This document shows, in pieces, positions 17,261-53,433 of a stretch of 64,000 nt of DNA (positions are counted from its first letter, which is position 1; the number at the start of each line of letters is the position of its first letter). The DNA lies in contig NZ_CP160402.1 in assembly GCF_040730185.1 (NCBI RefSeq), positions 6,820,001 through 6,884,000 of the forward strand, given 5' to 3'. The DNA comes from Streptomyces sp. Je 1-332. Lineage in GTDB: Bacteria; Actinomycetota; Actinomycetes; Streptomycetales; Streptomycetaceae. The position numbers were made by a program, and so were the translations under genes. A model generated the notes under the pieces. The model did no database searches, was not told the origin of the DNA, and saw only the letters and a list, made by a program, of their open reading frames with translations.

Positions 17261-17264
<4 letters not shown>
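16488..17264 (-). CDS. ABC transporter ATP-binding protein, LivG type
   Basis: A 258-residue ATPase of the hydrophobic amino acid (HAAT/LIV) uptake family. Walker A is GPNGAGKT (residues 38-45), the C-loop is LPVGRARMVELARA (the LP.G variant common in LivG), and Walker B is VLLLDEPASG near 175-184. The C-terminal DAYLGTTAA tail is typical of LivG. It is the last gene of the fadD-livJ-livHMF-livG run, overlapping the fusion permease stop as ATGA. It supplies the second ATPase; the first is fused to the permeases. The substrate may be a branched-chain amino acid or another carboxylate. Confidence 0.93.
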
Positions 17265-20095
<2,831 letters not shown>

Positions 20096-28945: not shown

Positions 28946-29794
28946 TCAGCCCTGGGAGGCCGCGGCCCGCACGGCGATCCGGTGCTCGCCCGCGTACACG
29001 TTCATGGAGGAGCCGCGCAGGAAGCCGACCAGCGTCAGGCCCGTCTCGGCGGCCAGATCGACGGCGAGTGACGACGGCGCGGAGACGGCGGCGAGCACCG
29101 GAATGCCCGCCATCACCGCCTTCTGTGCCAGTTCGAACGAGGCGCGCCCCGAGACGAGGAGCACCGCCCGGGACAGGGGCAGCCCGCCCTCCTGGAGGGC
29201 GCGCCCGACGAGCTTGTCGACCGCGTTGTGGCGGCCCACGTCCTCACGTATGTCGAGGAGCGCGCCGTCCTCCGAGAAGAGCGCCGCCGCGTGCAGGCCA
29301 CCGGTCCGGTCGAAGACGCGCTGCGCCGCACGCAGCCGGTCGGGGAGGCACGCGAGCAGGTCGGACCCCAGCCGGACCGGGGGAGTGTCGGCGATCGGGA
29401 ACCGAGCCGTCGTCCGGACCGCGTCCAGGCTCGCCTTGCCGCACAGGCCGCAGGACGAGGTGGTGTAGACGTTGCGTTCGAGGTTGATGTCGGGCAGGAG
29501 GAGCCCCGGGGCGGTCTTCACGTCGACCACGTTGTACGTGTTCGAGCCGTCCGCCGTGGCCCCGGCGCAGTAGACGATGGACTGGAGTTCGTCCGCCGAG
29601 CCGAGCACCCCCTCGCTCACCAGGAAGCCCGCCGCGAGCGCGAAGTCGTCACCCGGCGTGCGCATGGTGATGGCAAGCGGCTTCCCGTTGAGTCTGATCT
29701 CCAGAGGTTCCTCCGCGACCAGGGTGTCCGGCCGCTCGGTGACGGCCCCGTCCCTGATGCGGATGACGCGGCGGCGCTCCGTGACTCGTCCCAT
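28946..29794 (-). CDS. fdhD: Formate dehydrogenase accessory sulfurtransferase
   Basis: A 282-residue FdhD protein, which moves sulfur from a cysteine desulfurase to the molybdenum cofactor and is needed for formate dehydrogenase activity. The redox-active pair Cys115/Cys118 is visible in SSCGLCGKAS. Other family segments are LNGKPLAITMRTPGDDFALA, VGRHNAVDKLVG and LVSGRASFELAQKAV. It follows the iron-sulfur subunit by five bases and closes the operon. Its presence strongly supports assignment of the upstream molybdoenzyme as a formate dehydrogenase. Start ATG at 29794. Confidence 0.96.
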   Translation of the reverse strand: MGRVTERRRVIRIRDGAVTERPDTLVAEEPLEIRLNGKPLAITMRTPGDDFALAAGFLVSEGVLGSADELQSIVYCAGATADGSNTYNVVDVKTAPGLLLPDINLERNVYTTSSCGLCGKASLDAVRTTARFPIADTPPVRLGSDLLACLPDRLRAAQRVFDRTGGLHAAALFSEDGALLDIREDVGRHNAVDKLVGRALQEGGLPLSRAVLLVSGRASFELAQKAVMAGIPVLAAVSAPSSLAVDLAAETGLTLVGFLRGSSMNVYAGEHRIAVRAAASQG

Positions 29795-29799
29795 GTCGA

Positions 29800-30660
29800 T
29801 CAGTCCCGGTTCTGTACGTGCTGGTAGCCGAAGCGGCCCTTGATGCAGAGGTTGCCGTGGGTCACCGGATTGTCGTGCGGCGAGGTGACCTTCACGATGT
29901 CATTGTCCTGCACGTGCAGGGTCAGATTGCAGCCGACTCCGCAGTACGCGCACACCGTCGTCGTCTCGGTCTGCCGCTCCTCGTCCCAGGTCCCGGCGGC
30001 CCGCATGTCGAACTCGGACTTGAAACTGAGGGCGCCGGTCGGGCAGACCTCGATGCAGTTCCCGCAGTACACGCACGCGGAGTCGGTCAGCGGACCGTCG
30101 TGCTCGACGGCGATCCTGGCGTCGAAGCCGCGGCCCACCACGGAGATGGCGAAGGTGTTCTGCCACTGATCACCACAGGCGTCGACACACTTGTAGCAGA
30201 GGATGCACTTGTCGTAGTCCCGGACGTACAGGTCGTTGTCGACCCTGGGCTCTTCGTCGAGCCGCGCGGCGTCCGGACCGAAACGGTCGGGCTTGGCCTC
30301 GTACTCCTTGAGCCAGCCCGCGACCTTCGGCGTCGTCGACATGTCGACGGATGAGGCGAGGAGTTCGAGCACCACCTTGCGGCTGTGGCGGGTGCGCTCG
30401 GTGTCGGTCAGGACGGTCATGCCCGGATCGGCCCGGCGTGAGCAGGCCGGGGCGAGCGTACGGGCGCCCTCCACCTCGACGACACAGACCCGGCAGGCGT
30501 TCTTCGGGGTCAGGGTGTCGCCCTCGCAGAGGGTCGGGACGTCCTTGCCCGCGGCCCGGCAGGCGTCCAGGATGGTGGACCCTTCGGGCACCCGGGTGGC
30601 CTGCCCGTCCAGCGTGAACTCGACGAGACGGCGCGGGATTCCCAGCGGTACGGCTGTCAC
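29800..30660 (-). CDS. Iron-sulfur subunit: N-terminal module of formate dehydrogenase alpha (FdsA-N/HoxU-like)
   Basis: A 286-residue electron-transfer protein. It has a [2Fe-2S] ferredoxin domain with cysteines in PTLCEGD, KNACRVCVVEV and LAPACSR, two [4Fe-4S] motifs (CILCYKCVDAC and CVYCGNCIEVCPTGA), and a final CAYCGVGCNL ... GNLCIKG motif that in other enzymes is the N-terminal Fe4S4 domain of the molybdopterin subunit itself. It ends GRFGYQHVQNRD, exactly where FdsA-type proteins continue into RLT.PLVR. It is therefore the detached front half of an FdsA-type alpha subunit; the back half is the gene at 32739. The GTG start at 30660 overlaps the upstream stop as GTGA. Confidence 0.92.
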   Translation of the reverse strand: MTAVPLGIPRRLVEFTLDGQATRVPEGSTILDACRAAGKDVPTLCEGDTLTPKNACRVCVVEVEGARTLAPACSRRADPGMTVLTDTERTRHSRKVVLELLASSVDMSTTPKVAGWLKEYEAKPDRFGPDAARLDEEPRVDNDLYVRDYDKCILCYKCVDACGDQWQNTFAISVVGRGFDARIAVEHDGPLTDSACVYCGNCIEVCPTGALSFKSEFDMRAAGTWDEERQTETTTVCAYCGVGCNLTLHVQDNDIVKVTSPHDNPVTHGNLCIKGRFGYQHVQNRD

Positions 30661-32720
30661 TTGTACGCCCCCAGACGGTCGATGGCGGATTCCACGGCGT
30701 TCCACGCGGTCTGGCCGAGCCCGCATATGGAGGCGTCCCGCATGGTTCTCCCCACCTCGCGCAGGAGAGCGATGTCACCGGCGGCATCGGCCCCCGTCCG
30801 CTCGACGATGCGGTGCAGGGCTTCCTCCTGGCGGACGGTGCCGACCCGGCAGGGCACGCACTGACCGCAGGACTCGTCGCGGAAGAACTCGGCGATGCGC
30901 AGCAGGACGCGGGGGAGCGGCACGGTGTCGTCCAGGGCGAGCACGACGCCGGAGCCGAGGGTGGTGCCCGCCTCCCTCGTCCCTTCGAAGGTGAGCGGGA
31001 TGTCGAGCTCGTCGGGCCGTACGAAGCCGCCGGCCGCGCCGCCCAGGAGGACCGCGCGGAGGTTGTCCGGCTTCCCGGAGAGGGTGAGGAGTTCGGCGAG
31101 GGTGGCGCCGAAGGGGAGCTCGTAGATGCCGGGGCGTTCGACGCTGCCGGAGACGCAGAAGAGCTTGGGTCCGGTGGATGTGGCGGTGCCGATGGCGGCG
31201 TAGGCCTGGGCTCCCATGGTGAGGATGGGGAGGACGTTGACGAGGGTCTCGACGTTGTTCTCGGCGGTGGGCTTGCCGAAGAGTCCCTTCTCCACGGGGA
31301 AGGGCGGCTTGGACCGCGGCTCTCCCCTGTACCCCTCGATGGAGTTGAAGAGGGCGGTCTCCTCACCGCAGATGTAGGCGCCGGCGCCGCGCCTGATCTC
31401 GATGTCGAAGGCGTACCCCTGCCCGAGGACGTCGTCCCCGAGGAAGCCGCGGGCGCGGGCCTGTGTAATGGCGTGCTGGAGCCTTTGGAGGGCGCGGGGG
31501 TACTCGCCGCGGAGATAGAGGTAGCCGAGGTGGGCGCCCGTCGCGTACCCCGCGATGGTCATCGACTCGATGAGGGAGTACGGGTCGCCCTCCATGATCA
31601 CGCGGTCCTTGAAAGTGCCGGGCTCGGACTCGTCCGCGTTGCAGACGAGGTAGTGGGGATGGTCCGGCTGGGCCGCGGTGGCCTGCCACTTCTTTCCCGT
31701 GGGGAAGGCGGCGCCTCCTCGGCCGAGGAGGCCGGAGTCCGTGACTTCGCGGATGACTTCGGCGGGGCCGATGGCGAAGGCCTGCCGCAGGGCGGTGTAG
31801 CCGCCGTGGGCGCGGTAGTCGTCCAGGGATGTGGGGTCCACGGTGCCGATTCTGCTGAGCAGCAGGAGTCCTTCTCGGCCTGCCTGGGGGACGGCCAGGG
31901 CCGCGGGGGGCTCTGGCGGGGCGGACTCGGGGGCGAGGGCGGCTTTGGTGAGGGTGTCGGGGGTGGCGGGGGCGAGGGTTGCGGTGACGTAGGTTTTCTC
32001 CCCGCTCCCACCCCTACCCGAATCCCCCGGCTCCGCCGCCACCCGTGGCCGTAGATCACCGGCTCCGCCGAGTTCGTCCTCAAACACCGGACGGGCTGAG
32101 ACCCCCTCGCCCGGCCGTGGTCTCTCAGCCCGTCCGGCGTTTGAGGACGAGCCGTCAAGGCGATCGGTGGTGAGCTCAGGCCCTCGCGCCAGCGAGTTTT
32201 CGGGAAGGGGCGGGGTTGGGGAAGAAGGCGCCGCAGGCACACCGGCCCGCACCACCAACCCGGCGGGAGCCCTCTCGCACAACCCCAGGCAGGGCGAGGC
32301 CTCCACCGCCACCCCGGACCCGGGGCCAAGCCGCGACGAAACCTCCCCGCACAACTCCGCCCCACCCCCACAAGCAAGGTCCGTACACACCCGCACCACC
32401 GTCGCGGCCCGCGGCCGCACCGAGAACATGGAGTAGAAGGTGGCCACCCCGTACGCCTCGGCGGGCGGCACCGTCAGACGACGGCAGAGATAGTCGAGGC
32501 CCCCCTCACTCACCCACCCCACGCGATCGTTCAGCGCGTGCAACCCCGGCAACAGCTCATCCCGCCGCTCCCGCGCCGCACGCCCTCCCCGGGCCCACCG
32601 CAGATCCGCGTCGCTGCGGTCATCGGCACCCTCCCAGGCGGACTCCGGCGGCCCGAGCACCGCGTCGACCGCCGCCCGCTCCTCGTCCGTCGGCTTGCTG
32701 TCACCGAAGTGCAGATCCAT
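30657..32720 (-). CDS. NuoE-NuoF (FdsG-FdsB) fusion subunit of NAD-linked formate dehydrogenase
   Basis: A 687-residue diaphorase-type subunit. Residues about 25-155 are NuoE-like with [2Fe-2S] ligands Cys112, Cys117, Cys144 and Cys148 (CTDLAC and CLGLC). Residues about 265-687 are NuoF-like: NAD/FMN segments GRGGAAFPTGKKW and CNADESEPGTFKDR, then the [4Fe-4S] motif CGQCVPC and ASICGLGQ. It should pass electrons from formate to NAD. Residues about 162-241 are not enzyme sequence: they are encoded by a palindromic repeat (31996-32221) and are Pro/Ser/Gly-rich. The start ATG at 32720 follows the catalytic gene by 18 bp and a GAGGTGGGG site. Confidence 0.92.
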   Translation of the reverse strand: MDLHFGDSKPTDEERAAVDAVLGPPESAWEGADDRSDADLRWARGGRAARERRDELLPGLHALNDRVGWVSEGGLDYLCRRLTVPPAEAYGVATFYSMFSVRPRAATVVRVCTDLACGGGAELCGEVSSRLGPGSGVAVEASPCLGLCERAPAGLVVRAGVPAAPSSPTPPLPENSLARGPELTTDRLDGSSSNAGRAERPRPGEGVSARPVFEDELGGAGDLRPRVAAEPGDSGRGGSGEKTYVTATLAPATPDTLTKAALAPESAPPEPPAALAVPQAGREGLLLLSRIGTVDPTSLDDYRAHGGYTALRQAFAIGPAEVIREVTDSGLLGRGGAAFPTGKKWQATAAQPDHPHYLVCNADESEPGTFKDRVIMEGDPYSLIESMTIAGYATGAHLGYLYLRGEYPRALQRLQHAITQARARGFLGDDVLGQGYAFDIEIRRGAGAYICGEETALFNSIEGYRGEPRSKPPFPVEKGLFGKPTAENNVETLVNVLPILTMGAQAYAAIGTATSTGPKLFCVSGSVERPGIYELPFGATLAELLTLSGKPDNLRAVLLGGAAGGFVRPDELDIPLTFEGTREAGTTLGSGVVLALDDTVPLPRVLLRIAEFFRDESCGQCVPCRVGTVRQEEALHRIVERTGADAAGDIALLREVGRTMRDASICGLGQTAWNAVESAIDRLGAYK
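31996..32221. repeat. Long palindromic repeat element, copy B, inside a coding sequence
   Basis: Related to copy A at 17993-18144. The core is a near-perfect inverted repeat: GTCCTCAAACACCGGACGGG (32076-32095) faces CCCGTCCGGCGTTTGAGGAC (32129-32148). The right end, TTTTCGGGAAGGGGCGGGGT, matches the copy A end closely and is followed in both copies by TTGGGGAAG. The left end is degenerate here and the element is longer, with extra sequence between core and ends. It lies in the linker between the NuoE and NuoF domains and keeps the frame open. Confidence 0.85.
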
Positions 32721-32738
32721 ACGTCACCCCACCTCACC

Positions 32739-34661
32739 TCACGTCGTCGGCACGGCCAGCTTGTCGATACGTATCGCCGACGCCTTGAACTCCGCCGTGC
32801 CCGCGATCGGGCAATTGGCCTCGATCGTGAGCTGGTTGGTGTCGACCTCGTCGGGAAAGTGCATGGTCATGAAGGCCAGACCGGGGCGGAGCCCGGGGTC
32901 CACCCACACCGGTGCCGTCACCGTGCCGCGCCGGGAGGACACGCGGACCTCCTCGCCGACCACGACCCCGTAACGCTCCGCGTCCTCCGGACACAGCTCG
33001 ACGTACTCGCCCCGCCGCAGCGGCGAGGCGAAACTCCCGCTCTGCACACCGGTGTTGTAGGAGTCGAGCCGCCGCCCCGTCGTCAGGCGGATCGGGTAGG
33101 AGTCGTCGGTGAGGTCGACCGGCGGGTCGTGCGCGACGAGCCCGAAGGGCGCGAGCACGCCACGCCGTTCCGGGTCCGCTTCCCACAACCGGCCGTGCAG
33201 GTACGTCGGTTCGACCCGCTCCTGAGAAGGGCAGGGCCACTGGATGCCCTGCAAGGACTCCAGGCGGTCGTACGTCATGCCCCAGTGGTCCGGCGACACC
33301 GACCTCAGCTCGTCCCACACCGCCTGCGCGTCCGCGTACTTCCAGTCGTGGCCGAGCCGTTCGGCGAGGTCGCAGAGGATGTCGATGTCCTCGCGCGCCT
33401 CACCGGGCGGCCGCACGGCCTTGCGCACCCGCTGGACCCGCCGCTCGCTGTTGGTCGTCGTGCCGTCGGTCTCCGCCCAGGCGGCGGTCGCGGGGAGCAC
33501 GACATCGGCGAGTTCGGCTGTCTTCGTGAGGAAGATGTCCTGGACCACGAAGAAGTCCAGGGCCCGCATCCGCCGCATCGCCTGCTCGCTGTCCGCCTCC
33601 GACTGTGCGGGGTTCTCGCCGATGCAGTAGACGGCCTTGAGCGCGCCCTCCTCCATCGCCTCGAACATCTCCGTCAGATTCAGCCCGTAGCGCGGCTGGA
33701 TGACCGTGTCCCAGGCCGTCTCGAACTTCATCCGCGAGGCAGGGTCGAGGATGTCCTGGAAGCCGGGCAGGCGATTGGGGATCGCGCCCATGTCGCCGCC
33801 GCCCTGCACGTTGTTCTGCCCGCGCAGCGGCTGCAGGCCCGAGCCGTAGCGCCCGACGTGGCCGGTCAGGAGCGAGAGGTTGATCAGGGCGCGGACGTTG
33901 TCCGTGCCGTTGTGGTGCTCGGTGATGCCGAGTGTCCAGCACAGCTGCGCCCGTTCGGCCCGGGCGTAGGCGTGCGCCAACTCCCTGATCGCGGCGGCCG
34001 GTACGCCCGTCACCTTCTCGGCGAGCGAGAGGGTCCATGGCTCGACCAGGGCCGCGTACTCATCGAAGCCGGACGTCGCCCGCTCGATGAACGCCCGGTT
34101 GGCCAGGCCCGCGTGGATGATCTCGCGGCCGATCGCGTGCGCCATCGGGATGTCCGTGCCGACGTTCAGGCCGAGCCAGCTCTCCGCCCACTCGGCGGTC
34201 TTGGTGCGGCGCGGGTCGACGGCGTACATGCGGGCGCCGTTCCTGATCCCCTTCAGGACGTGCTGGAAGAAGATCGGGTGCGCGAAGCGGGCGTTGGAGC
34301 CCCACATCACGATCAGGTCCGTGTGTTCGACCTCCTCGTACGAGGACGTGCCGCCGCCCGAGCCGAAGGCCGCGGAGAGGCCCGCGACGCTCGGCGCGTG
34401 ACACGTGCGGTTGCAGGAGTCGACGTTGTTCGTGCCCATCACCACACGGGCGAACTTCTGGGCCACGTAGTTCATTTCGTTGGTCGCGCGAGCGCAGGAG
34501 AACATCCCGAACGCGCCACGTGCCGCATCAAGGCCCGCCGCCGTACGGGCCAGCGCCTCGTCCCAGGTGGCCCGGCGGAACGGCTCGTCGCGCGAGTCGC
34601 GGACGAGGGGGTGGGTGAGCCGGGTGTACGTCGTGGGCACCCGGTCCCGTTTCCTGCTCAT
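32739..34661 (-). CDS. Formate dehydrogenase catalytic subunit lacking its N-terminal Fe-S domain
   Basis: A 640-residue molybdopterin oxidoreductase. It starts MSRKRDRVPTTYTRLTHPLV, where RLTHPLVRD is the point at which full-length FdsA-type alpha subunits leave their N-terminal iron-sulfur modules. The active-site segment is DSCNRTCHAPSVAG, with the cysteine before HAPS as likely Mo ligand (Sec or Cys in formate dehydrogenases) and the following His/Arg features expected. GQNNVQGGGDMGAIPNRLPG binds cofactor, and the C-terminal MopB_CT domain holds HFPDEVDTNQLT. The missing Fe4S4 domain is encoded at 29800. ATG 34661 is chosen for its GGAG site and its ATGA overlap with a 9-codon frame; ATG 34673 is an alternative. 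Confidence 0.92.
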   Translation of the reverse strand: MSRKRDRVPTTYTRLTHPLVRDSRDEPFRRATWDEALARTAAGLDAARGAFGMFSCARATNEMNYVAQKFARVVMGTNNVDSCNRTCHAPSVAGLSAAFGSGGGTSSYEEVEHTDLIVMWGSNARFAHPIFFQHVLKGIRNGARMYAVDPRRTKTAEWAESWLGLNVGTDIPMAHAIGREIIHAGLANRAFIERATSGFDEYAALVEPWTLSLAEKVTGVPAAAIRELAHAYARAERAQLCWTLGITEHHNGTDNVRALINLSLLTGHVGRYGSGLQPLRGQNNVQGGGDMGAIPNRLPGFQDILDPASRMKFETAWDTVIQPRYGLNLTEMFEAMEEGALKAVYCIGENPAQSEADSEQAMRRMRALDFFVVQDIFLTKTAELADVVLPATAAWAETDGTTTNSERRVQRVRKAVRPPGEAREDIDILCDLAERLGHDWKYADAQAVWDELRSVSPDHWGMTYDRLESLQGIQWPCPSQERVEPTYLHGRLWEADPERRGVLAPFGLVAHDPPVDLTDDSYPIRLTTGRRLDSYNTGVQSGSFASPLRRGEYVELCPEDAERYGVVVGEEVRVSSRRGTVTAPVWVDPGLRPGLAFMTMHFPDEVDTNQLTIEANCPIAGTAEFKASAIRIDKLAVPTT

Positions 34662-34723
34662 GCCGCGCTCCATGTGTTCTCGTTCATGGCGCGCTCCTCG
34701 TTTTCTCGCTCATGCCGCGCTCC
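34646..34723. repeat. Triplicated 26-bp RBS/start-codon module between panE-like gene and fdhA
   Basis: On the minus strand three consecutive 26-bp units begin at 34723, 34697 and 34671. Each starts GGAGCGCG, then G/C, CATGA. Each unit thus holds a ribosome-binding site and an ATG. Because the unit is 26 bp, each ATG opens a 9-codon frame that ends in the ATGA of the next unit: MSEKTRSAP, then MNENTWSAA, then the catalytic subunit. The upstream gene's own stop overlaps the first unit's ATG (34713) in the same way. Confidence 0.8.
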
Positions 34724-35687
34724 TCATGCGGTCGGCCAGCAGGTCCGAGATGGCGTGGACGGTGTGGAGCGTCGGCACCGGGACCCCGGTGATCTCCGCG
34801 AGTTCGACGACGGCCGCGAGCAGCACGTCGAGTTCAAGGGGTTTGCCGCGCTCCAGGTCCTGGAGTGTGGAGGTGCGGTGGTCTCCGACGCGCTCGGCGC
34901 CTGCGAGGCGCCGCTCGACGGAGATGTCGGGGCGGCAGCCGAGCGCCGCCGCGACGGCGAGCGTCTCGTTCATCATGATCTCGATGACGCGGCGCGTGCC
35001 GCCGTGCAGACACATCTCGCGCATCGTGGCGCGGGAGAGCGCGCTGATCGGGTTGAAGGAGATGTTGCCGAGCAGCTTGATCCAGATGTCGCCGCGCAGG
35101 TCGGGCTCGACGGGACACTTCAGGCCGCCCGCCCGCATGGCCTCGCTGAAGGCGAGACAGCGCTCGGAACGCGAGCGGTCGGGCTCCCCGACGGAGAACC
35201 GTGTGCCCTCCAAGTGCCGTACGACGCCCGGCCCTTCGAGCTCGGTCGCCGCGTACACCACACAGCCGATGGCCCGTTCGGGCGCGATCACCGCACTGAC
35301 CGCGCCCTCGGGGTCCACGCTGCTGACGCGGTGGCCGTCGTGCGGGCCGCCGTGCCGGTGGAAGTACCACCAGGGGATGCCGTTCTGGGCGGCTATCACC
35401 GCCGTCCTGTCGTGCAGGAGCGGCTCGATCAGCGGCCCGCACGCCGCGTACGAGTTGGCCTTCAGGCCCAGGAAGACGTAGTCGACGGGGCCGATGTCGG
35501 CCGGGTCGTCGGTGGCGTGGGCGCGCGCGGTGAAGTCGCCGCGCGGGCTGTGGACACGTACTCCGTGCTGCCTCATGGCCGCCAAATGCGGTCCACGGGC
35601 GACGAGATGGACGTCGGCACCGGCGCGGTGCAGCGCGGCTCCGACGTAGGCGCCGATCGCACCGGCGCCGAGGACTGCGACTTTCAC
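34710..35687 (-). CDS. 2-dehydropantoate 2-reductase-like protein (ApbA/PanE family)
   Basis: A 325-residue NADPH-dependent reductase. The N-terminal Rossmann motif is VAVLGAGAIGAYVGAAL, followed by a C-terminal helical domain with the catalytic lysine region IWIKLLGNISFNPISAL. The family reduces ketopantoate or similar 2-keto acids. It is the first gene of the formate dehydrogenase run, coupled to the catalytic gene through the 26-bp repeats, so a housekeeping role in pantothenate synthesis is unlikely; reduction of a small keto acid is a guess. Start GTG at 35687. The GntR-type palindrome at 35786 lies about 100 bp upstream. Confidence 0.88.
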   Translation of the reverse strand: MKVAVLGAGAIGAYVGAALHRAGADVHLVARGPHLAAMRQHGVRVHSPRGDFTARAHATDDPADIGPVDYVFLGLKANSYAACGPLIEPLLHDRTAVIAAQNGIPWWYFHRHGGPHDGHRVSSVDPEGAVSAVIAPERAIGCVVYAATELEGPGVVRHLEGTRFSVGEPDRSRSERCLAFSEAMRAGGLKCPVEPDLRGDIWIKLLGNISFNPISALSRATMREMCLHGGTRRVIEIMMNETLAVAAALGCRPDISVERRLAGAERVGDHRTSTLQDLERGKPLELDVLLAAVVELAEITGVPVPTLHTVHAISDLLADRMRSAA

Positions 35688-35785
35688 GGTGGCGCGCTCC
35701 GTTCGGTCGAGGGATCCGAAGAAGGCTCAGGATCGACACCGCATGCTCGTGACGGACTACTTCGCATGCCATAACGGTCGATGGA

Positions 35786-35801
35786 ATATTGTCTACAGTA
35801 T
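35786..35801. promoter_or_regulatory. FadR/GntR-type operator between formate dehydrogenase and OFA antiporter genes
   Basis: ATATTGTCTACAGTAT is a near-perfect palindrome with the GT-N2-AC core (TGTCTACA) typical of the FadR subfamily of GntR regulators. It sits about 100 bp from both divergent starts, 35687 and 35905. The 11-mer TTGTCTACAGT recurs inverted at 38481-38491, before the GntR gene itself, which makes that regulator the probable binder. Confidence 0.7.
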
Positions 35802-35904
35802 GGAAGTTGGCCCAGCAAGGGGTCGCGCGGCACATTGCATACCGTCGACGCAATCGCGCTCGCCTCTTCCCAACTCCCCGCCCCGCTTCCTACTGTTCGG
35901 GATC

Positions 35905-37239
35905 ATGAGGCCCCCCGTCGCACCCCCGGGCTGGAGCCGCTGGCTCGTACCGCCCGCCGCCCTGTCCGTCCACCTCTCCATCGGCCAGGCCTACGCCTGG
36001 AGCGTCTTCAAGCCCCCACTCGAATCAGCCCTCGACCTCAGCGGCACCCAGAGCGCGCTCCCCTTCCAGCTCGGCATCGTGATGCTCGGCCTCTCGGCGG
36101 CCTTCGGTGGCACGCTCGTCGAGCGCAACGGACCGCGCTGGGCGATGACGGTCGCCCTCGTCTGCTTCTCGTCCGGCTTCCTGATCGCGGCCCTCGGCGC
36201 GGCGATCAGCCAGTACTGGCTGATCGTCTTCGGTTACGGCTTCGTCGGCGGCATCGGCCTCGGCATCGGCTACATCTCGCCCGTCTCGACCCTGATCAAG
36301 TGGTTCCCGGACCGCCCCGGCATGGCGACCGGCATCGCGATCATGGGCTTCGGCGGCGGCGCGCTCATCGCCTCGCCGTGGTCCGCGCAGATGCTGGACT
36401 CGTTCGGCACGGACTCCGACGGCATCGCGCTCGCCTTCCTCGTGCACGGCCTCACCTACGCCGTCTTCATGGCGCTCGGCGTGCTCCTGGTGCGCGTGCC
36501 GCGTACGGAGGGGGCGCGCAAGCCCGGGGTTCCCGGCGCCCTGGACGGGCCGCAGGTCTCCGCGCGGGCGGCCGTTCGGACACCCCAGTTCTGGTGTCTG
36601 TGGATCGTGCTCTGCATGAACGTGACGGCGGGCATCGGCATCCTGGAGAAGGCGGCGCCGATGATCACCGACTTCTTCTCCGACACCTCGACGCCGGTCT
36701 CGGCCGCCGCCGCGGCGGGCTTCGTCGCCCTGCTCTCCGCGGCGAACATGGCCGGGCGCATCGGCTGGTCATCGACGTCCGACCTGATCGGGCGCAAGAA
36801 CGTCTACCGCGTCTACCTGGGCGTCGGCGCGCTGATGTATCTGCTGATCGTCCAGTTCGGGGACACGTCGAAACCGCTCTTCATCGTCTGTGCGCTCGTG
36901 ATCCTCTCCTTCTACGGAGGCGGCTTCGCGACGATCCCGGCGTATCTGAAGGACCTCTTCGGCACCTATCAGGTGGGCGCGATCCACGGCCGCCTGCTGA
37001 CCGCCTGGTCGACGGCCGGTGTTCTCGGCCCGCTGATCGTCAACTGGGTCGCCGACCACCAGGAGGAGGCGGGCAAAAGCGGGGCGGGGCTCTACGGCCT
37101 CTCCCTCACGATCATGATCGGGCTCCTTGTCATCGGTTTCGTGGCGAACGAGTTCGTCCGCCCTGTCCACGCCCGCCACCACATCCCCGCCCCGAGGGAG
37201 GCAGCCCATGACGGCACCGACCAGCACGCCGCCAAGTGA
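35905..37239 (+). CDS. OFA-family MFS transporter (oxalate/formate antiporter type)
   Basis: A 444-residue major facilitator with about 12 membrane helices. Early helix QAYAWSVFKPPLE and the loop WFPDRPGMATGIAIMGFGGGA are hallmarks of the oxalate:formate antiporter family, as is YLKDLFGTYQVGAIHGR in the second half. In this context formate or a related small carboxylate is the likely substrate, but family members carry varied monocarboxylates. The ATG at 35905 gives a standard N-terminus; no strong ribosome-binding site is seen, and a longer in-frame reading is possible. Divergent from the formate dehydrogenase operon. Its 3' end overlaps the next small gene by 32 bp. Confidence 0.9.
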   Translation: MRPPVAPPGWSRWLVPPAALSVHLSIGQAYAWSVFKPPLESALDLSGTQSALPFQLGIVMLGLSAAFGGTLVERNGPRWAMTVALVCFSSGFLIAALGAAISQYWLIVFGYGFVGGIGLGIGYISPVSTLIKWFPDRPGMATGIAIMGFGGGALIASPWSAQMLDSFGTDSDGIALAFLVHGLTYAVFMALGVLLVRVPRTEGARKPGVPGALDGPQVSARAAVRTPQFWCLWIVLCMNVTAGIGILEKAAPMITDFFSDTSTPVSAAAAAGFVALLSAANMAGRIGWSSTSDLIGRKNVYRVYLGVGALMYLLIVQFGDTSKPLFIVCALVILSFYGGGFATIPAYLKDLFGTYQVGAIHGRLLTAWSTAGVLGPLIVNWVADHQEEAGKSGAGLYGLSLTIMIGLLVIGFVANEFVRPVHARHHIPAPREAAHDGTDQHAAK

Positions 37240-52039: not shown

Positions 52040-53433
52040 GGGACTCCGGGGTGGAAGCTGAGGGGGCTGCGGGGGCTGGCATGGGTGTGGGTGTGGGTGT
52101 GCGCGTGGGTGGTGAGGCTTCTCGCGGTGGGGTGGGGGCTGGCGTCGGTGCTGAGGCTTCTCGCGACGGGCAGGAGGCCGGCGTAAGTCGTGAGGCTTCT
52201 CGCGGTGGCCTGCGTCTGGGCACGGGCCGCGACTGGGCCGAGCTGCTACGCGTCTCCGCTCTGTTCACCGTCCCCGGGGACGCCCTCGCAGGCGCGGCGG
52301 CGGCAGGGCTGAGCCCCAACCGCCGCACACTCCTCGCCATTGCCGCCTCGCTCTCCCTCTACGAGGCGGGCATGGCCCTCAACGACTGGGCGGACCGGGC
52401 GGAGGACGCGATCGAACGCCCGCACCGCCCGCTGCCGTCCGGCCGCATCGCCCCCTCGGCCGCACTGGGCGCGGCAGCGGCTCTGACGGCAGGGGGCCTG
52501 GCCCTGGCAGCCGGCGCGGGGCGCCCTGCCCTGGCGGTGGCGAGCGGCTTGGCGGCCACGGTGTGGGCCTACGACCTGGGCCTGAAGCACACCCCCGCGG
52601 GCCCGGCAGCCATGGCCACGGCCCGCGCCCTGGACTTGCTCCTGGGGGCGGCGGCTACTTCGGCGGGGGTTGCTGCGGCCGGGGCTGCGTCGGCGGGGAG
52701 CGCTTTTCGCGGTCTCAGGTCCGGCCATGCTCTGGGTGACGCCCCCCGGCTTCTCGCTGCCGTGCCCGCCGCCCTGGTACTGGGCGCCCATACCCTCGCG
52801 GTGACGGCGGTCTCGCGACGAGAGGCGCAGGGTGGTTCGACGGCGGTCCCGCTGGGCGCACTCGCCGCGACAGTCGCGCTCGCGCAACTGCTGGCCCGAA
52901 GCGGTGGGGCTGCCGGCGGCCCTGGCGGCATGGACGGCTTTGGCGGTACCGGTAGCCCTGGCAGCACCGGCGCGGACGCCGGCGCCGGAACCTCTCAACT
53001 CCCGGCAGGCCGCGGCGGAGCAGCCACCCGCGGCCTGCCGGGCTTCACCCCGGGGGAGTCGACGGGTGCCCGCCTGGTAGGCCTGGCGGGCCGGGTGGGA
53101 GGGCGGACGGAAGGTCGGCGCAGGCGCAACGGTGGCCTGCTGGGCTTCGCTGCGGCGAGCTCCGGCGGTGTCGCTCGGCGAGCCGGAGCCCGCGGCGTTG
53201 TTCAAGCCGCGCTCGCCGTCACCTACGCGGCCACCGCAGCCCGCCCCCTCTTCCACGCCGCGCTCAACCCCTCGCCGCAGCTCACCCAGCGGGCGGTGGG
53301 CGGCGGCATCCGGGCCATGATCCCGCTCCAGGCCGCACTCTCCGCCCGGGCTGGGTCCCTCGTGCCCGCCCTCCTGGCCGCCGCTCTGGCCCCGGCGGCC
53401 CGCAAGTTCGGCCGGAAGGTGAGCGTCACATGA
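52036..53433 (+). CDS. UbiA-type prenyltransferase, SCO3242/EboC-like, with low-complexity inserts
   Basis: A 465-residue membrane prenyltransferase. The aspartate-rich motif NDWADRAEDAIERPHRPLPS is the UbiA polyprenyl diphosphate site, and YDLGLKHTPAGP matches the second conserved loop. EboC-type enzymes would attach a prenyl chain to a small acceptor. Two regions are abnormal: an N-terminal tail of about 60 residues with a 13-residue tandem repeat (GGEASRGGVGAGV-like), and a Gly/Arg-rich insert of about 100 residues near 295-400 (GGPGGMDGFGGTGSPG). UbiA proteins are usually 280-320 residues. The GTG at 52036 overlaps the upstream stop; a later start within the tail is possible. Confidence 0.87.
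   Translation: MRDSGVEAEGAAGAGMGVGVGVRVGGEASRGGVGAGVGAEASRDGQEAGVSREASRGGLRLGTGRDWAELLRVSALFTVPGDALAGAAAAGLSPNRRTLLAIAASLSLYEAGMALNDWADRAEDAIERPHRPLPSGRIAPSAALGAAAALTAGGLALAAGAGRPALAVASGLAATVWAYDLGLKHTPAGPAAMATARALDLLLGAAATSAGVAAAGAASAGSAFRGLRSGHALGDAPRLLAAVPAALVLGAHTLAVTAVSRREAQGGSTAVPLGALAATVALAQLLARSGGAAGGPGGMDGFGGTGSPGSTGADAGAGTSQLPAGRGGAATRGLPGFTPGESTGARLVGLAGRVGGRTEGRRRRNGGLLGFAAASSGGVARRAGARGVVQAALAVTYAATAARPLFHAALNPSPQLTQRAVGGGIRAMIPLQAALSARAGSLVPALLAAALAPAARKFGRKVSVT
52113..52209 (+). repeat. 39-bp tandem repeat inside the prenyltransferase gene
   Basis: TGAGGCTTCTCGCG begins at 52113, 52152 and 52191, exactly 39 bp apart. The first two units match along most of their length; the third only in its first half. 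The period is a multiple of three, so it encodes a 13-residue repeat in the N-terminal tail. A run of GTGGGT repeats precedes it at about 52082-52110. Confidence 0.85.

Follow-up and report, generated by a model that had tools for sequence, protein, structure and literature searches.

BIMEs and REPINs are mosaics of modules arranged in inverted pairs, their numbers vary strongly between genomes, and REPINs depend on RAYTs. The repeat considered here resembles them in being a module mosaic in inverted pairs, present in variable numbers. The tagged REPs of the GTAG and CGTC kinds offer a second comparison. According to the sections of Di Nocera et al. (2013, PMC3733652) that we draw on, they lie in convergent and unidirectional gaps at less than 20 bp from 3' ends, GTAG units supply stop codons, some REP copies are found inside proteins, and the CGTC type has no transposase of its own. 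The same sections suggest that REPs are tolerated in flexible linkers or loops, and they report different REPs at about one site in two Xanthomonas recB genes. Inside genes, the Rickettsia palindromic elements (RPEs) are described, in the portions of the articles used here, as palindromic repeats that form part of conserved but unrelated genes and are translated in frame with them (PMC10969869, PMC2229807), nearly half of the first RPEs being in genes (PMC10969869). For ERIC and the Yersinia RU-2 MITEs, one of these portions describes repeat ORFs fused in frame with host ORFs (PMC2229807).

The window that we analysed is a stretch of 64,000 nucleotides (positions 6820001-6884000) of an 8.27 Mb genome in a single contig, hereafter the home genome, whose closest named relatives by the NuoE-NuoF protein are Streptomyces. 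Its repeat is, in the broad sense, a REP/BIME-like palindromic repeat of Streptomyces: high copy, mostly intergenic and found in inverted pairs. As far as the tagged REPs are described in the sections cited above, it shares with the GTAG and CGTC families the high-copy palindromes, mostly in head-to-head pairs and near 3' ends, but its units measure about 70-105 bp with several hairpins, where theirs measure 20-40 bp, and unlike them its core has a loop of 9 nt and no CCA tail. A CGTC-REP is defined by an unpaired tag, a stem of 8-9 bp, a loop of 4-5 nt and a CCA tail; here the CGTC is paired in the predicted fold of one half from the home genome, the loop is 9 nt in both halves folded, and the end reads GGGCTGA. 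With the RPEs, within the same limits of the sources, the Streptomyces repeat has in common that a palindromic repeat is read in frame inside genes, where it would work as they do; its in-frame copies were seen in two gene families, 2 of the 158 places examined lie in genes, a far smaller share than among the first RPEs, and both TGA-free frames of its core are used. The likeness to ERIC and RU-2 lies in the in-frame fusion, by description in the part of the source used and with no sequence relation implied. The repeat is REP-like by its placement, seems RPE-like by its in-gene behaviour, and is outside the CGTC definition by its loop and tail.

Neither "Streptomyces" nor "Actinobacteria" occurs in the main text of PMC3733652, and "Streptomyces" is absent from PMC6006769. 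REP counts are tabulated for three other Actinomycetota in PMC12306157, the consulted portions of which do not mention Streptomyces, and the repeat is not among the stable palindromic 3'-UTR transcripts compared between Streptomyces coelicolor and E. coli in the portion of PMC4681348 that we used. Rfam returned no match at gathering score for window positions 31900-32300, and we read its sub-threshold miRNA matches as chance matches to hairpins. In the open-licence literature we found none of three strings of the core letters and, in its accessible portions, no description of a Streptomyces REP of this kind or of its linkers. What appears to be new, as judged from sequence, is that the linkers of NuoEF and of a fused transporter are recurrent sites of insertion of the repeat.

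Two in-frame copies in the window

The features concerned are the following, in window coordinates:

30657-32720, minus strand: fused NuoE-NuoF subunit, 687 aa (Pfam PF01257, PF01512, PF10531, PF10589)
31986-32231, minus strand: coding insert, approximate, residues about 164-245 (separate matches and alignment)
31999-32099, plus strand: half-element, type A, core at its 3' end (32077-32099, 1 mismatch); local alignment score 51.3, profile model R1 E 1.5e-17
32125-32223, minus strand: inverted half-element, type A with altered middle module, exact core at 32125-32147; local alignment score 61.8, R1 E 2.5e-18
17261-20095, minus strand: ORF of 944 aa, fused branched-chain amino-acid-type permease and ABC ATPase (PF02653, PF00005)
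17985-18054, plus strand: half-element, type B, in the transporter linker; local alignment score 58.7
18061-18153, minus strand: inverted half-element, type B with an extra inner module, exact core at 18061-18083; score 46.2 plus core match

The original prediction, made from the letters of the window, had placed a two-armed element between the two domains of the NuoE-NuoF fusion and a related one in the transporter. Both are there: the first is read in frame at 31999-32223, and the second occupies 17985-18153, between the permease and ABC ATPase domains. The core pattern matches the window four times at up to 3 mismatches, and never in 100 dinucleotide shuffles. The frames were also called correctly, as codon reading confirms. 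In the transporter the forward core gives PQTP (CCT CAA ACG CCG), in NuoEF SSNA (TCC TCA AAC GCC); for the reverse arm the two proteins share one frame (..CCG GYG TTT GAG GA.., P-A/V-F-E). One of the three core frames on each strand runs into a TGA, and linkers make use of both TGA-free ones. Across the linkers the forward core yields SSNAG or PQ(T/S)P, and the reverse core ARPAFEDE, or QPVRRLR in L260.

As predicted, the NuoEF frame in use has no stop: it forms one single ORF, with a NuoE-type domain at residues 51-156 and a NuoF-type part from residue 326 (Pfam). The single ORF of relatives matches residues 1-163 and 246-687 separately, and the insert is absent from most NuoEF orthologs examined by alignment. 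The label of formate dehydrogenase subunit given to this gene is one that we take, by eye, from the neighbouring ORFs. Within window positions 28946-37239 there is an ORF that is presumably FdhD-like, as judged by eye from the translations of the ORFs and from familiar protein families; the formate dehydrogenase catalytic chain seems, again by eye, to be split between 29800-30726 and 32739-34673, which flank nuoEF, and the ORF at 35689-37239 likewise looks like an OFA-type transporter. The codon-usage script scored the NuoE part (32232-32720) as non-coding and the NuoF part high; the NuoE part is clearly homologous to that of relatives despite this score. Elsewhere in the window, at 52090-52206, there are 39-nt repeats, three in tandem, that share GAGGCTTCTCGCG.

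The repeat family and its genomic placement

The unit of the family is a half-element of about 70-105 bp, made of a conserved 26-nt core, TCGTCCTCAAACGCCGGACGGGCTGA, and lineage-specific hairpin modules. It is laid out as an outer arm (TTCCCCAACCCCGCCCCTTCCCGAAA), a middle module A or B, and the core, and a half-element may stand by itself or face an inverted partner core to core. The NuoEF insert had been presented as a second copy; a related copy it is, but the term understates the family, as the home genome, with 2 mismatches or fewer allowed, has 86 core matches, of which 42 are forward and 44 reverse (0 for the pattern read backwards). The half-element profile gives at least 98 matches there at E ≤0.1, with 150 of 14224 first-look candidates scored, so that weak copies may be missed. 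Core and profile matches were merged into 78 places, the weakest of which (e.g. L086, L113), at 21-22, do not exceed the highest control score of 22.4. The core is found in 139 of 199 Streptomyces genomes (at up to 1 mismatch, 0-254 matches per genome, control 0) and, outside the genus, in 1 of the 20 genomes of an order-wide sample.

The Streptomyces genome with 254 matches, G051, has the same core with different hairpin modules. Inverted pairs of 140-260 bp number 24 in the home genome and 54 in G051. Outside the core, identity is 0.92 within the home genome, 0.86 within G051 and 0.66 between them, against 0.95 between them for the core; the sample consisted of 20 halves from the home genome and the first 25 of 115 from G051, chosen by score to the consensus of the respective genome, a choice that raises the within-genome figures. 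This pattern fits amplification within each lineage, as far as sequence comparison can tell, and gene conversion could also produce the likeness within genomes. Among the exact matches listed for G051, 25 of 26 at 1.77-3.21 Mb lie on the plus strand and all 6 at 3.24-3.57 Mb on the minus strand. A replication-strand bias is only a guess here; many of these strand-skewed matches have an inexact partner with which they form an inverted pair, and by eye no comparable skew of core matches was seen in the home genome.

As the original prediction had proposed, we sorted the copies into intergenic and in-frame ones, and this in two genomes. In the home genome the two places of the window and 76 others were examined, and in G051 80 of at least 83 places, which were built from the exact core matches listed, with mismatched copies excluded; the surrounding genes were called with the codon-usage script. 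In the home genome 66 of the 78 places are intergenic, 10 overlap the end of a called gene and 2 are in genes; the corresponding numbers for G051, among the matches listed, are 71, 9 and 0 of 80. One of the ten edge places of the home genome, L088, lies entirely within 52 bp of the start of a called gene, and that start may be wrong. Both genomes together thus have 137 of 158 examined places between genes and 2 of 158 counted in genes, both in the window. The latter is a lower bound: one in-gene copy was counted from the gene caller and the other from homology, a strict spanning-frame test found neither and a relaxed one recovered only that of the gene caller, which failed on the NuoE part of the home NuoEF and could miss others. 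Since about 86% of the sampled DNA was called coding, coding DNA is strongly avoided by the repeat.

Between genes, the repeat favours convergent gaps (31/66 in the home genome and 32/71 in G051, against 62/440 and 54/416 background gene pairs; Fisher p 7e-9 and 3e-9), whereas divergent gaps are depleted (2/66 and 5/71, against 88/440 and 80/416; p 2e-4 and 0.011). Tandem, or unidirectional, gaps are frequent (33/66 and 34/71), yet below their background share (p 0.014 and 0.002). In these backgrounds a few gene pairs are counted twice and some of the fetched stretches overlap (e.g. L121, L122). In convergent gaps the median distance from stop codon to element is 14.5 bp in the home genome and 9 bp in G051. 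Four G051 genes (L161, L202, L207, L218) stop 19 bp inside the element, and by coordinates this stop is the core TGA, which gives them short C-terminal tails encoded by the repeat.

The element had been proposed to be free of stops in several frames, which did not hold. Counted over six frames, the 24 paired elements of the home genome and the 54 of G051 both average 5.0 stops, where their dinucleotide shuffles average 3.35 and 2.94, and the core itself has its TGA in one of three frames per strand; open frames number 2.88 per paired element against 3.37 when shuffled in the home genome, and 2.22 against 3.65 in G051. As stops exceed and open frames fall below those of shuffles, the element is not unusually stop-free, and a special lack of stops was discarded on this comparison. 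Open frames are common in any case because the G+C content is 69-73%. Other intergenic pieces of 180 bp hold 6.15 stops in the home genome and 5.18 in G051.

Insertion in the two interdomain linkers

Linker DNA was scored against the half-element consensus sequences of the home genome and of G051. Element-derived sequence was found in 21 of 86 NuoEF linkers (score ≥24), one of them from Actinacidiphila (L260). The other linkers reach at most 17.7, the reversed linkers 19.3 and the NuoE/NuoF coding DNA of the same genes 20.0, none of these controls attaining 24. Among 30 distinct transporter linkers, 7 carry element-derived sequence; the domains (scores under 24) and the reversed sequences give none, and four further linkers, at 19-21, fall in a grey zone and were left uncounted. 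The 86 NuoEF rows are not all independent, for the numbered and the named genomes may have members in common (the tree shows L035 and L276 as identical); 12 of 80 loci were dropped for want of linker anchors, as was L246, whose linker duplicates that of L041, and L050-L060 were not used. For the transporter, at least 30 loci were listed from 67 of 392 genomes matched, and from the 43 loci taken 9 anchorless ones and 4 duplicates were removed. The original prediction had asked for a check on whether in-frame copies prefer domain boundaries, and in these two families an excess is found there, with none in the flanking domains; both families were picked because the window shows an insert in them, so that the figures are those of two families and not a genome-wide rate.

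That linkers rich in G+C, Pro and Gly simply converge on similar DNA would be suggested by their high G+C and low complexity and by the four grey-zone transporter linkers. We give this next to no credence: the counted linkers score 24.2-66, well apart from the controls above, several matches extend over about 100 bp, and for the high-scoring linkers the score gap rules a compositional resemblance out.

The central proposal of the original prediction was that a stop-free element had acted as a gene-fusing linker and had created both the NuoE-NuoF and the permease-ATPase fusion. It has in its favour that both in-gene copies counted in the home genome sit between two domains. We nevertheless hold it to be highly improbable, as both fusions exist in relatives without the element, and the element has more stops than its shuffles. 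In a first search of the genus, NuoEF is fused through a short, element-free linker in orthologs including L035-L040, L042, L044 and L045, with ..RAG(D/E)PVRTAV.. in most; there are element-free orthologs with a 43-aa linker, and the set of named genomes contributes many further cases; the fusion is likewise element-free in other actinobacterial families, in Nocardiopsis, Herbidospora and Acrocarpospora, with longer and unrelated linkers. The transporter orthologs L062, L063, L064 and L074 are fused at 87-91% identity, with linkers of 28-42 aa and no element. Gene fusion by the element was rejected on these fused orthologs. Of the statement that both genes are fused at the element, the position stands and the cause does not, and of the two observations named in advance as speaking against the proposal, the usual stop density was found but the lack of an excess at junctions was not. 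From the sequences compared, the repeat appears to have entered linkers between domains that were already joined. More generally, repeat DNA between the domains of a fused ORF need not mean that the repeat fused them.

The insertions seem to have recurred. A quick tree was built from the NuoE and NuoF parts alone (80 rows, 19 with an insert; six more rows, two with inserts, were left out; SH-aLRT support only), and on it 10 gains or losses are counted, at least 7 of them forced by well-supported branches; the tree counts changes without distinguishing gains from losses, and some could be losses. Insert type, orientation and frame differ between NuoEF clades. The nearest ortholog of the home NuoEF, that of S. 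longisporoflavus (L241; 95% over 543 columns), has an insert with the same first half, whereas its second half is B-like where that of the home genome is type A, which suggests, from the two sequences, that half-element modules were later exchanged in place at a shared site.

One linker filled in many lineages, and half-elements that differ at a shared site as if swapped, are also what would be expected if linkers were preferred targets, their DNA being recognised by an insertion machinery or by recombination. Selection against insertions elsewhere in genes predicts an identical pattern, and we regard such targeting as unlikely. We think it distinctly less probable still that element-derived linkers were kept because longer linkers rich in Pro, Gly and Glu improve the enzymes. 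Recurrence in two proteins would agree with such a benefit, as would the length of the NuoEF linkers, which is 44-139 aa with an insert against a median of 43 aa without; but sequence, length, orientation and frame vary freely among species, and 65 of the 86 NuoEF linkers do without an insert. A broader formulation, somewhat less doubtful than either although still tentative, is that the repeat repeatedly supplies and remodels interdomain linkers, through independent colonisation of the same linkers in several lineages, with both orientations and both TGA-free frames in use, and through later swapping of half-modules, and would thereby be a source of linker variation that is possibly useful. 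In the transporter linkers L070, L322 and L350 the element is accompanied by tandem Gly/Ala/Pro-rich repeats, for a linker of up to 197 aa.

Proposed spread and persistence of the repeat

The reading that we prefer, with a probability of about 0.86, is that of a non-autonomous REP-like repeat, mostly intergenic, which is tolerated in already-fused interdomain linkers and fused no genes. The repeat would spread within genomes via some agent, and this movement can only be inferred because no transposase could be tied to the family. Most copies would end up in intergenic DNA, in convergent gaps and at a typical distance of 9-15 bp from the stop codons, and at these sites the hairpin probably influences the 3' ends of transcripts; they may survive there because they do little harm, or because they shape the transcript ends. 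The rare copy that falls in a gene would survive where an additional disordered peptide is tolerated, for example in an interdomain linker, with the core read in either of its two TGA-free frames. The linkers provide a natural protein series, in which one linker carries a like repeat in several lineages, so that the neutrality of linker inserts can be asked about, and the family makes a case for asking by what means a palindromic repeat that has no obvious transposase spreads through an industrially important genus.

The home genome gave no Y1_Tnp match, and a RAYT/Y1 transposase as a necessary agent there was rejected on this result. Over the genus, Y1_Tnp is matched in 66 of 199 genomes and absent from 26 of the 54 that have at least 20 core matches. 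In contrast with the RAYT-dependent REPINs, 5 of the 9 Streptomyces genomes with at least 100 core matches have no Y1_Tnp: among those with the most matches, G051 (254) and G002 (224) lack it and G079 (229) has it. The median number of core matches is 8.5 with Y1_Tnp and 3 without (p 0.005), a weak genus-wide association by which Y1_Tnp may be linked to the repeat in other genomes.
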